Shown here in pieces: positions 12,995 through 17,968 of a DNA stretch of 32,727 bases. The notes under the pieces were generated by a model, which searched no databases, was not told the origin of the DNA, and was given only the letters and a program-made list of their open reading frames with translations. Within the stretch, counting starts at the first letter, position 1, and every line of letters starts with the position of its first letter. This stretch comes from Deltaproteobacteria bacterium (GTDB lineage: Bacteria > Desulfobacterota > JADFXK01): assembly GCA_015233625.1 (NCBI GenBank), contig JADFXK010000006.1:522-33248 (forward strand). Reading direction: 5' to 3'. The position numbers were made by a program, and so were the translations under genes.

Positions 12995-13753
12995 TCAGCG
13001 CACAATCCGGTTGACCAGAGAGCCAATCCCGGCAATCCGAACCTCCACCTCATCGCCCGGAGTCATCGGGCCAACCCCCGAAGTAGTCCCGGTGGCGATC
13101 ACATCACCCGGTTGCAGGGTCATCACTTTGGAAATAAAAGAAACTAATTCAGCCACATTGAATAGTAGATGGCGAGTGTTGGAAGACTGCTTGACCTGAC
13201 CGTTCAGCAGACACTGGATATCCAGGTCAGCCGGGTCCAGGCCGGAGACGACCCAAGGCCCCAGGGGGCAAAAAGTGTCAAAGCTCTTGGCCCTGGTCCA
13301 CTGCTTGTCTTTAGCTTGCAAATCTCGGGCCGTGACGTCATTCAGGCAGGTATAGCCGAAAATATAGTCAGCCGCATGAATGAGTCCGACATCCTCGGCC
13401 GGCTTACCGATAACTACTCCCATTTCAGCTTCATAGTCAACCTGCTGGGACATGGCCGGATAGATGATATCGTCACCCGGTCCAATCACCGAGGAGGAAG
13501 GCTTCAGAAAGAGCAACGGTTCTTCCGGCAGCTTAAGCCCCATTTCCTGGGCATGATCGCGGTAGTTCAGGCCGATGGCCACCACCTTGGATGGCGTCAC
13601 CGGGGCCAGCAGGCGCACGTCGGACAAAGAGATCTCCGGCCCGGTGACCTGATATGGTTCCAGGAAATTACCGCTAATCCGGCGAAATCCGGCGCCTTCG
13701 TCTACTCCAAAAGAAATGGCGCCATTCTTGTCTTGGTATCTGATGTATTTCAT
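12995..13753 (-). CDS. Fumarylacetoacetate hydrolase-family protein
   Basis: VVAIGLNYRDHAQEMG, FLKPSSSVIGPGDDI, VDYEAEMGVVIGKPA, GYTCLNDVTARDLQ, GDVIATGTTSGVG. Confidence 0.93.
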   Translation of the reverse strand: MKYIRYQDKNGAISFGVDEGAGFRRISGNFLEPYQVTGPEISLSDVRLLAPVTPSKVVAIGLNYRDHAQEMGLKLPEEPLLFLKPSSSVIGPGDDIIYPAMSQQVDYEAEMGVVIGKPAEDVGLIHAADYIFGYTCLNDVTARDLQAKDKQWTRAKSFDTFCPLGPWVVSGLDPADLDIQCLLNGQVKQSSNTRHLLFNVAELVSFISKVMTLQPGDVIATGTTSGVGPMTPGDEVEVRIAGIGSLVNRIVR

Positions 13754-13792
13754 ATCTTTGGTGAATTCTCCGTCATGCGGTTGAGAGGTTAA

Positions 13793-14053
13793 TTAATCAC
13801 TTTCAACGCCGTCAATGATTCTTTGAAACTCTTCCAACGAACCGACGACCCATGCTTTCTTGCGCAAATCTTTTAGCACGGCAGTGTCGGCTATGGCATT
13901 TATCTGATCTTCAGTCATTGAAGGAACCTGGCCAAATCTGTTTCCGAGGATTTCAATAATAGTCTCGCGCATCGTCGCTTGCACATCTCGGAGACCTTCT
14001 TGGAGACCTTCCTGGAGACCTTCTTGGAACCATGTTTCGGCTAGACCGGGCAT
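13793..14053 (-). CDS. Candidate intragenic in-frame ORF (86 aa) encoding the Rpn C-terminal domain alone
   Basis: Minus strand CCAAGGAGGTGGTGCTATGCCCGGT: AAGGAGG 7 nt before an in-frame ATG; product MPGLAETWFQEGLQEGLQEGLRDVQATMRETIIEILGNRFGQ...IIDGVESD. Confidence 0.55.
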   Translation of the reverse strand: MPGLAETWFQEGLQEGLQEGLRDVQATMRETIIEILGNRFGQVPSMTEDQINAIADTAVLKDLRKKAWVVGSLEEFQRIIDGVESD

Positions 14054-14800
14054 AGCACCACCTCCTTGGTTGTTAAAGACATCGTCCAGCGCCTCCCTCA
14101 ACTCCTGCGAGCTTATTCTTTCCTTATTGGCCAGTAAGTAATGGATAACTTTCCCCAGGTGATCCTGGTGAGAATATTCCTCTTCAGGCCTTCTCAATAA
14201 CTCCAATATGGCTCGAATGCGGGCTCGTAGTTCATCGCTATGAAATATGTATTTCAGGATCAGCAAAACCGCTCTGAGTATCTCCTGACCTTTGATATCC
14301 TCATCCCGGTAAATGGACAAGTCATAGAGAAGATAGCTGAAATCAGGTAGAAATGATCGGAGACAAAAACGCTTGACAAACAGCTTCCGAAAGCTCTCCG
14401 GGATATTCCACCGGTTAACTCCGTGGTACAACACTATCGGCACAATATGCGGGAGGATCCCATCCCAATCCTGGCCCATGGTATGCTCCCATATCCGAAT
14501 CATATAACGGAGCAAATGAAAAGCGACCAATGGTTCAGGATAGCTCTTGTGCTCAAACAGAATGTAGACCAAAACCCGGCCGCCATCCGTCGTGTCCACT
14601 TCATACAGGAGATCGGACAGTCTCTCCTTCAGATTGTCATCGACAAAAGTGTCCTTGCGCGGCTTGAGTGTCTCCAGATTAAGCTCTTGAACCACCTCAC
14701 CAGGAAGATAATTCAACAAAAAATCTGCGGCCTCCTCTTTGTTGGAGAAGACACTCTTGAAAAACCGATCATGGCTGTTGACAATTTCATCCGAAGTCAC
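13793..14800 (-). CDS. Rpn/YhgA-family (PD-(D/E)XK) recombination-promoting nuclease/putative transposase
   Basis: HDRFFKSVFSNKEEAADFLLNYLP, YEVDTTDGGRVLVYILFEHKS (candidate D...ExK), HIVPIVLYHGVNRWNIP, C-terminal QEGLQEGLQEGLRD repeat. Confidence 0.9.
   Translation of the reverse strand: MTSDEIVNSHDRFFKSVFSNKEEAADFLLNYLPGEVVQELNLETLKPRKDTFVDDNLKERLSDLLYEVDTTDGGRVLVYILFEHKSYPEPLVAFHLLRYMIRIWEHTMGQDWDGILPHIVPIVLYHGVNRWNIPESFRKLFVKRFCLRSFLPDFSYLLYDLSIYRDEDIKGQEILRAVLLILKYIFHSDELRARIRAILELLRRPEEEYSHQDHLGKVIHYLLANKERISSQELREALDDVFNNQGGGAMPGLAETWFQEGLQEGLQEGLRDVQATMRETIIEILGNRFGQVPSMTEDQINAIADTAVLKDLRKKAWVVGSLEEFQRIIDGVESD
13990..14025 (-). repeat. Three 12-bp in-frame tandem repeats encoding QEGL-type units
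   Basis: Plus strand ggagaccttctt/ggagaccttcct/ggagaccttctt. Confidence 0.9.
14061..14067 (-). promoter_or_regulatory. Internal Shine-Dalgarno AAGGAGG within the Rpn gene
   Basis: Plus-strand cctcctt; correctly placed for ATG at 14053. Confidence 0.6.
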
Positions 14801-14821
14801 GATTACGCGCCCTCTTCAAGC

Positions 14822-17800
14822 TCAATAATAGGTTATCACCACCCGATCCAGGTAATCCGCAAAGACGGCCAGGTGGTCGGCGATAGCCGCGGTGTCGGCC
14901 CTTTTGGCGGCCAGCTCAATGGCCAGACCGAGTTGGCCCAAATAAAGGAACCCGTAGCTCCCGGCGGAACCCTTGATGCTATGGGCGATCCGCTTCAAAG
15001 TATCAAAATCCCCTTCGGCCAACGACTGGTGCATGGAGCTGATATAATTCCGATAGTCAGTTATAAATTCTGGGATCAAGTCTTCCAGAATCGAATTCAC
15101 CTTGACCACATAGTCTATCTGCGGCTCGATTCCCGCCGGAGTCGGCGGTTCTTCTGTCGCCGGTCGGACAGAGGTCATCTCTCGCGGCCGATCGGTCTTG
15201 CCGGCCAGCGTAATAGAAGTCGTGTTTGCGGCACCGCCGTCGCCTCTCCTTTTCATGACAAAGTTTTGAATTGTCTTGAACAGCCTGTCTTTATTAATCG
15301 GTTTGGTCAAATAATCATTACAGCCGGCGTCGAGACATCTTTGTTTATCCTCTTTGAAAGCATGGGCGGTGAGAGCCACGATTTCGGTGGAAGGCCTGGA
15401 GTTGGCTTTTTCCCATTGTCTGATCCGTCTGGTCGCTTCAAACCCATCTATGACCGGCATGACTATATCCATTAACACCAAATCGTAATTGCCAGCCACG
15501 AATTTTTCCACGGCCACCTGGCCATTTTCGGCCATGTCGAGACGACACAAGGTGTTCTTGAGGTAGAGTTCGATAATTCTTCGGTTACTAGGATTGTCTT
15601 CAACCAACAAAATGTTTAGGGCGGGCAGGTTGATATTCCCGCTCTCCCGGAGTTCCCTATTGACCTTATTGTCCATACGATCCAGGTTTCCAGTGACATG
15701 CAACACTGCGTCCATCAATTCCGATCGTCCGACCGGCTTGACCAGATAGCCAGTCAGGCTGGCCCGGTCATCACAAGGATCGTCAGCAGTTATCATCATG
15801 ATTATCCGCGGGGCAGCCTCCTGATTCCCTTTGATTCTCTCGACCAAGTCAAATCCGTCCATATCCGGCATCCGTCGGTCAACCAGCAGTAAGTCATAAG
15901 GCGCCCCATCCTCGTGGGCCTGAGCCAGGAAATCTATGGCCTGAATACCATTGCCTACCTCGGTTACCACCGCGCCCCACCCAGAAAGCGTTTCGTTTAG
16001 AACCATCCGGTTGGTCGCATTGTCGTCCACGATCAAGGCCTTGAGTCCATTTACGTTCATTTCAAGTTGTGGCCTCTGATCTGAGCATCCTTCCCTAACA
16101 CCCAGTTTTACCGTAAAATAAAAAGTAGATCCCCGGCCGGGATAACTCTCCACCCAGATCCGGCCACCCATCATCTCCACCAGCTTCTTGGAAATGGTCA
16201 GCCCCAAACCAGTGCCGCCATGTTTACGAGTGGTGGAAGAGTCCGCCTGGGCAAAGCTTTCAAAAATCAACTGTTGATGCTCCACGGCAATACCGATGCC
16301 CGTGTCCTCGATGGAAAACAATAGGGCCCCTGGTTCCCCGACCTGTTTGTCTGGAACCACCCGCAACCCGACTTCCCCCGTCTCGGTAAACTTAATTGCG
16401 TTGCCGATCAGGTTGACCAGTATCTGTCGTAACCGCGTCGGATCACCGACTAAGATGTTCGGAATTTCAGAAGAGACCTGGCAAGGCAGCTCCAATCCTT
16501 TTTCGTGTGCTCGCATAGCCAATATCTTGTTTGTTTTTTCAACCAGTTGGCGAAGATCAAAATCAATTGACTCCAATTCGAACTGACCGGCTTCAACCTT
16601 GGATAGATCAAGTATATCATTAATGATATCCAACAAATTTTCACCAGCCGATTTGAAGGTATGAACATACTGTCGCTGGTCCGGACTGAGATTGGTCTCC
16701 CACAAAATATCGGCCATCCCCAGAATGGCGTTCATGGGTGTGCGGATTTCGTGGCTCATGCTGGCCAAGAATTCACTCTTGGCCCGGTTCGCCGCCAGGG
16801 CTGCCTCTCGCTCCTTTTCGGCTTTTTCCTTTTCCTTTTGTTCCGTGATATCTACCAACGATCCTTCGTAATAAAGCACCTTCCCGGACTTACTCCGGAC
16901 GACCCGGGCCGAGATAGAGACATAGATGATCGTGTCGTCCTTTCGCCGAAAAGGGGCTTCTAACCCGATGACCTGACCTTTTTCAAGGAGGAGTTGGGTA
17001 AACATCCGTCGATCATCAGGATTAACATAGACTTGCCGGGCCATGTCGGTGATGGCTGAGACCAGTTCTTCAGGAGATTCATAACCTAAGATTTTGCTCA
17101 TGGAGGGGTTGGCACTGAGATAACGGCCGTCGGGAGTGCTCTGAAAGATGCCTTCGATGGCATTTTCATACAAAGATCGGTATTCTTTTTCTGAGGCCTT
17201 GAGATCATGATATAATCTCGAGTTCTCGATAGCTACTGCGGCTTGGGCGGCCAAGGTATTGATCAGCTTCAAGTCCCGGGCGGTGTATGGCATGGGTTCC
17301 CGGCTACTAATACTGATGACGCCAATTATTCTGTGCCCTGTTTTGAGTGGGGCGCAAATCATGGAGCTGACCGGGAAAGCACTGGGAATATACCGGGGGT
17401 CATGAACCACGTCGTTGATAATTTCAGCTTTGCCGGACAGGAAGACATCTCCAGCGATGCCCAACCCCGGTCGCGTAAACATCTTCTCGGGAGGGTTTTG
17501 CCCAACCGCCGCCAGCATCTCTAATACATCAGTTTCTTTATTCAAAATCATAATCGAGACAGCGTCGGCCGTGACCACTTCCCGGGCATGTTCAATGACC
17601 AGGCCGGCCACGCTTTTTAAATCAAGGGAGGCGGCCAGATTTTCGGCCATCTTGTGGAGCAATGTAATTTCTTTATATGTATCTAGTGTTTCGGCAACTA
17701 ATTCTTTTTTTTCGTGCTCCCGACCAGCAATATAGGTCAGCACCGAGGCGAACAATGAACTTTGCGGCCCGCCCCGAACCCACCCCAAGCGTACTCCCTC

Positions 17801-17968
17801 CATATCAATCGGATGCAGGTCTGAGGCTTCACCACCGGGCCGCCCGAAAATAATCGCTCCCTGCTCGTCCAAGATTTCCACATCATCGTGCAGTACCTGG
17901 GCGAGACTCTCCAATATGGAACCAATCTCTTTTTTTTTCAGAATTTTCTTGAGGTGGATGGCGTTCAT
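14822..17968 (-). CDS. Hybrid histidine kinase: GAF-PAS-HisKA-HATPase-REC-REC-Hpt
   Basis: GAF region, PAS (YRSLYENAIEGIFQSTPDGRYL), FLASMSHEIRTPMNAILGM, N/G boxes (NLIGNAIKFTE, DTGIGI, GGTGLGL), two REC (LLLVDRRMPDMDG; LVLMDIVMPVIDG), Hpt AHSIKGSAGSYG. Confidence 0.95.
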   Translation of the reverse strand: MNAIHLKKILKKKEIGSILESLAQVLHDDVEILDEQGAIIFGRPGGEASDLHPIDMEGVRLGWVRGGPQSSLFASVLTYIAGREHEKKELVAETLDTYKEITLLHKMAENLAASLDLKSVAGLVIEHAREVVTADAVSIMILNKETDVLEMLAAVGQNPPEKMFTRPGLGIAGDVFLSGKAEIINDVVHDPRYIPSAFPVSSMICAPLKTGHRIIGVISISSREPMPYTARDLKLINTLAAQAAVAIENSRLYHDLKASEKEYRSLYENAIEGIFQSTPDGRYLSANPSMSKILGYESPEELVSAITDMARQVYVNPDDRRMFTQLLLEKGQVIGLEAPFRRKDDTIIYVSISARVVRSKSGKVLYYEGSLVDITEQKEKEKAEKEREAALAANRAKSEFLASMSHEIRTPMNAILGMADILWETNLSPDQRQYVHTFKSAGENLLDIINDILDLSKVEAGQFELESIDFDLRQLVEKTNKILAMRAHEKGLELPCQVSSEIPNILVGDPTRLRQILVNLIGNAIKFTETGEVGLRVVPDKQVGEPGALLFSIEDTGIGIAVEHQQLIFESFAQADSSTTRKHGGTGLGLTISKKLVEMMGGRIWVESYPGRGSTFYFTVKLGVREGCSDQRPQLEMNVNGLKALIVDDNATNRMVLNETLSGWGAVVTEVGNGIQAIDFLAQAHEDGAPYDLLLVDRRMPDMDGFDLVERIKGNQEAAPRIIMMITADDPCDDRASLTGYLVKPVGRSELMDAVLHVTGNLDRMDNKVNRELRESGNINLPALNILLVEDNPSNRRIIELYLKNTLCRLDMAENGQVAVEKFVAGNYDLVLMDIVMPVIDGFEATRRIRQWEKANSRPSTEIVALTAHAFKEDKQRCLDAGCNDYLTKPINKDRLFKTIQNFVMKRRGDGGAANTTSITLAGKTDRPREMTSVRPATEEPPTPAGIEPQIDYVVKVNSILEDLIPEFITDYRNYISSMHQSLAEGDFDTLKRIAHSIKGSAGSYGFLYLGQLGLAIELAAKRADTAAIADHLAVFADYLDRVVITYY

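Follow-up and report, generated by a model that had tools for sequence, protein, structure and literature searches.

An rpn nuclease gene in the window (the whole 32,727-nucleotide stretch of DNA analysed, from a Deltaproteobacteria bacterium of the Desulfobacterota) very probably encodes a toxin and its intragenic antitoxin, RpnL and RpnS, in one reading frame, as judged from its sequence and by analogy with E. coli. The initial annotation had proposed such a pair in a distant lineage, and the proposal is supported at the sequence level by the protein family, the active site, the internal start and the repeats. RpnL/RpnS is a kind of system that is already known; the evidence for selection is unusually clear here. 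This evidence is statistical and independent of the bench; it points to selection on the Rpn internal antitoxin start across a phylum distant from that of E. coli, and extends to nuclease families that are not filed as Rpn.

In the arrangement we propose, RpnL (335 aa) would be a DNA nuclease of the PD-(D/E)XK type whose C-terminal module contains a long helix, and RpnS (86 aa) would be this module alone, initiated independently at the ATG at 14053 from AAGGAGG. With an internal start much stronger than the RpnL GTG, RpnS would be made in excess, pair with the same module of RpnL by way of the long helix that bears the repeats, and keep the nuclease inactive until their balance changes, for example upon phage infection. 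The anatomy of the gene and the conservation of its internal start are confirmed; by analogy, we infer the translation of RpnS, its dimerisation and its inhibition of RpnL. Toxicity and phage defence at the window locus would be extrapolations from E. coli, with phage defence the weakest step.

An internal start within an Rpn nuclease gene

The RpnL open reading frame runs on the minus strand from a GTG at 14800 to a stop ending at 13793 (13793–14800). Matches to PF04754 (6e-59; 199 bits against a curated cut-off of 21) and to TIGR01784 (Rpn family; 3e-19, over the cut-off) bear out the earlier assignment of this nuclease to Rpn, and the active-site residues are retained: D11, D63 and E83 are nearly invariant among 31 homologues, and K85 is present. 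Around the internal start the minus strand reads ...AACAACC AAGGAGG TGGTGCT ATG CCC GGT..., placing AAGGAGG (14067–14061), as first read, 7 nt before an in-frame ATG (14053–14051) that is Met250 of RpnL. Initiation there would yield the 86-aa C-terminal protein that had been predicted, the putative antitoxin RpnS (13793–14053, minus strand), beginning MPGLAETWFQEGLQEGLQEGLRD; the open reading frame confirms that such a product would start before the QEGL repeats. These repeats (13991–14026, minus strand; three copies of a 12-nt unit, with a copy number that differs among orthologues) begin at residue 10 of RpnS, which fits the placement of 4-aa repeats 8–20 residues past the internal Met. The position homologous to this Met is occupied by Met in at least 90% of 20 aligned C-terminal modules.

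E. coli rpn genes have internal transcripts. By contrast, a promoter scan found no minus-strand promoter-like site inside the window's rpn gene and so gave no support for an internal transcript. No intrinsic terminator-like site was seen in the region.

Strength of the internal Shine–Dalgarno sequence

We scored Shine–Dalgarno (SD) strength as the ViennaRNA duplex energy with ACCUCCUU, assuming the canonical anti-SD sequence, and took as background 108 open reading frames (43,636 codons) from 20 contig stretches of the same genome. The 694 internal in-frame ATGs in this background averaged −2.7 kcal/mol, with 4.5% at −7. Only one reached the −12.2 kcal/mol of the RpnS start, and this was the RpnS start itself (0 of the 693 others); likewise, AAGGAGG followed by ATG in frame after 5–9 nt occurred twice in the sample, once at this site. 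The initial annotation was thus right that the SD is stronger than a chance site in coding sequence, as no other sampled internal ATG is as strong.

Chance would nevertheless have a route here, namely a Gly-rich linker, N-Q-G-G-G-A-M, that happens to read AAGGAGG. Gly-Gly codons resemble an SD, and synonymous recoding of the seven-codon linker N-N-Q-G-G-G-A gave a mean of −9.3 kcal/mol and a p value of just 0.021, suggesting that the linker supplies part of the signal, although not all of it. For the single gene, chance is a poor account of the internal SD; the family test settles the matter, as conservation there extends over different peptides and codon phases. On the family-level result and the background test together we reject chance, which we rate as highly improbable.

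Selection on the internal start across the family

PF04754 matches numbered 8, 11 and 7 in the window's genome and two congeners, and the scan of genome contigs yielded two congeners only. The C-terminal module had 29 matches in the window's own genome, which is 68% complete. To this we added other members of the phylum and assembled a family set blind to the SD, comprising every non-redundant open reading frame that was 200 aa or longer and matched the module, with the profile as the sole criterion.

An in-frame ATG occurs at the junction in every one of the 63 cases, and for 62 of these at least one such ATG has an SD scoring −6 kcal/mol or better. With the threshold at −7, the count is 57 of 63, compared with 4.5% of background internal ATGs; a whole-gene control at −7, in which a wider C-terminal window was used, returned 93% of Rpn genes and 8.6% of unrelated genes. 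The linker peptides vary widely (NNQGGGA, KDIKEGD, SGKGGEI, TREEVVA, HDKRRDI, SEPGRSI), and the SD occupies all three codon phases (25/18/8), being coded, for example, as KGGEI, KEGD, EEVVA or RRDI. It is therefore the DNA sequence that is kept, and not the peptide.

A synonymous null gave the same answer. Every one of 52 unique linkers lay below its own synonymous mean. In a selection-corrected test, codon usage was weighted to each gene, the minimum over all junction ATGs was taken in real and recoded sequences alike, and one gene was used per 50%-identity cluster. This test gave a Fisher p of ~1e-10 over 27 clusters, which still share ancestry and for which the anti-SD was taken as canonical. 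The proposed alignment of homologues, asking whether SD and ATG are conserved beyond codon needs, thus has a positive answer. Outside the sampled set, an Acetoanaerobium gene has an ATG internal start with an SD of −7.2 and a Leptospira plasmid gene a GTG internal start with an SD of −7.8 kcal/mol (a single gene checked in each case). In a Leptospira phage gene and a Vibrio plasmid gene the Met is present, but an SD at −6 is not reached, so the feature is not universal there.

Predicted output and structure

The RpnL start is weak. Its GTG lies behind the upstream kinase gene and is served by a ribosome-binding site, GAAGAGGG, in the intervening gap (14801–14821, minus strand), at −6.3 compared with −12.2 kcal/mol for the internal ATG. 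The long-form starts of family genes are generally weak and often GTG or TTG, and in 25 of 26 genes the internal start is the stronger of the two (median −10.45 versus −6.3). From this difference RpnS should exceed RpnL, and on the simplest reading of these start sequences RpnS would be overproduced and buffer the nuclease.

The AlphaFold2 model of RpnS has helices at residues 5–40, 45–53, 57–69 and 73–85 (mean pLDDT 79.8), that is, a predicted helical bundle in which the first helix is long and three short ones follow. In the RpnL model, a low-confidence linker (residues 247–250) marks the junction, and the helix at 253–289 bears the repeats. These models are consistent with RpnS being an autonomous module that would pair through its first helix. 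Against PDB structures, the small helical RpnS model gave no significant match (the solved RpnAS is 7TH0), and neither did RpnL, whose best match was the nuclease EndoMS (E 0.09); a PDB sequence search found no Rpn entry. Weak DUF4351 matches were present in 7 of 20 family members.

The SD lies exactly where two domains meet, beside a low-confidence linker, and this position would also suit a translational pause between them that helps RpnL to fold, with no separate protein made. A pause site would work without a start codon, but in 62 of 63 modules the SD is followed by an in-frame ATG, and the homologous E. coli site yields a separate protein (PMC10327210). We consider this explanation unlikely and, as the in-frame ATG is conserved, reject a pause without initiation.

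Comparison with E. coli and other Rpn systems

The closest known system is the E. coli RpnL/RpnS family (rpnA–E and rpnP2; Zhong et al. 2023, PMC10327210). In that study, tagging and start mutation proved that the rpnA internal start makes RpnAS, and loss of this start made RpnL more toxic; RpnAS blocked DNA cleavage in vitro and RpnS blocked toxicity in vivo. The 4-aa repeats after the internal start vary and set specificity, and small-protein copies exist downstream of rpnC and rpnE. Looking in E. coli for a homologous internal start, we found one in rpnA: scored in the same way, Met244 is preceded by AAGGAG (−8.0 kcal/mol) and followed by MTIAERLRQEGEQ, which is homologous to MPGLAETWFQEGLQ here.

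Both systems thus share the PF04754 nuclease domain, an internal SD and ATG at a homologous junction (MPGLAETWFQEG here, MTIAERLRQEG in RpnA), a small protein whose first helix carries variable 4-aa repeats, and several copies with downstream stand-alone small-protein genes. The RpnA catalytic residues D11, D63, E82 and Q84 (PMC5350276) correspond to D11, D63, E83 and K85 of the window protein, so that the third catalytic position is K here (FEHK) and Q in RpnA (IEHQ). The tail differs as well, being 86 aa and DUF4351-like here compared with 49 aa in RpnAS; the SD is stronger than that of E. coli rpnA, and about 29 module copies occur in one incomplete genome. The E. coli system was shown at the bench, whereas ours is known from sequence alone. 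An rpn gene of C. difficile, which is from a different phylum than the window gene and is likened to it here by description, makes an internal RpnS from a predicted ribosome-binding site and start when cloned in E. coli, a non-enterobacterial case of Rpn (PMC10327210).

Gene-within-gene products can also be complementary, as with Cas11d (cited in PMC10327210), and an oligomerising helix would fit an accessory subunit as well as an inhibitor. RpnS might then be translated as an assembly or DNA-binding partner, in the manner of Cas10d/Cas11d. The blocking of RpnL cleavage and toxicity by E. coli RpnS (PMC10327210) and the strong excess expected from the internal start, which fits a buffer, argue against this role; it seems improbable, albeit the least so of the alternatives. 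The antitoxin reading predicts a small product in excess and toxicity of start-dead alleles in this environmental lineage, whose genomes hold dozens of module copies each, and it flags genes whose second product annotation misses.

Matches in the phage collection, in Leptospira, Sodalis and enterobacterial records, comprised the nuclease domain alone, and none carried an RpnS of the window type.

Orthologues and gene neighbourhood

The closest intact orthologue, L022, is 86% identical and has ~8 repeat units, compared with 3 in the window gene, a difference that agrees with the reported hallmark of Rpn. The expectation that close homologues conserve the SD held family-wide but only partly for L022, whose SD is weaker (AAAGAGGTGAT, compared with AAGGAGGTGGT in the window; hybrid −7.1 versus −12.2 kcal/mol): one substitution weakens the match and another lengthens its 3′ side, for a net −7.1. 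The synonymous test on the L022 linker was not significant (p 0.43). Around the internal start, ~30 bases (AACAACCAA RGAGGTGRTGCTATGCCCGGT) are nearly identical in all three congeneric loci.

In a further congeneric orthologue (L023:1995–2473), a deletion has removed most of the nuclease part but left the SD, the ATG and most of the small open reading frame. The latter stops ~10 residues early, and the locus is possibly a solitary antitoxin or plain decay.

The window's rpn gene sits in a tight same-strand run (12995–17968), between a multi-domain sensor histidine kinase gene upstream, which ends at 14822, and a fumarylacetoacetate-hydrolase-like gene, which starts at 13753; this kinase–rpn–FAH-like order is common to the three congeneric loci. 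No defence genes were seen among the near neighbours of rpn, and PADLOC models gave no match.

The same module behind other nucleases

Less expected was the same internal start in DUF2887 and Pfam-less nucleases with the same tail. In this genus, DUF2887 domains (PF11103) precede the same C-terminal module with its internal SD and ATG (EEVVA|MLNFDLADT), differing from Rpn in the N-terminal family, which is PF11103 and not PF04754. Of 16 DUF2887 open reading frames scored, 12 reached −10.8 kcal/mol or better, two stood at −6.6 and two end before the module. The same module and start also follow a family without a Pfam nuclease match (L011, L018, L020 and L185).

We consider it rather likely that this C-terminal module, together with its start, forms a portable antitoxin cassette that has been joined to PF04754, DUF2887 and Pfam-less nuclease families, keeping SD and ATG each time, and that also spawns stand-alone antitoxin genes. 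If so, gene-within-gene control would not be peculiar to Rpn but would represent a general and swappable architecture. An internal start across several nuclease families goes past the main text of PMC10327210, whose supplement may hold prior notice of it, and we found no mention of DUF2887 in the literature searched.

Within the sampled phylum, the DUF2887 loci (L138–L157) were found only in this genus. Stand-alone module genes lie directly downstream of full or partial genes at L017:478–1680, L020 and L075, and those in L017 and L020 each bring a copy of the linker SD and ATG with them. At L038:1372–1926, two different C-terminal modules are fused in a 185-aa open reading frame without a nuclease domain.
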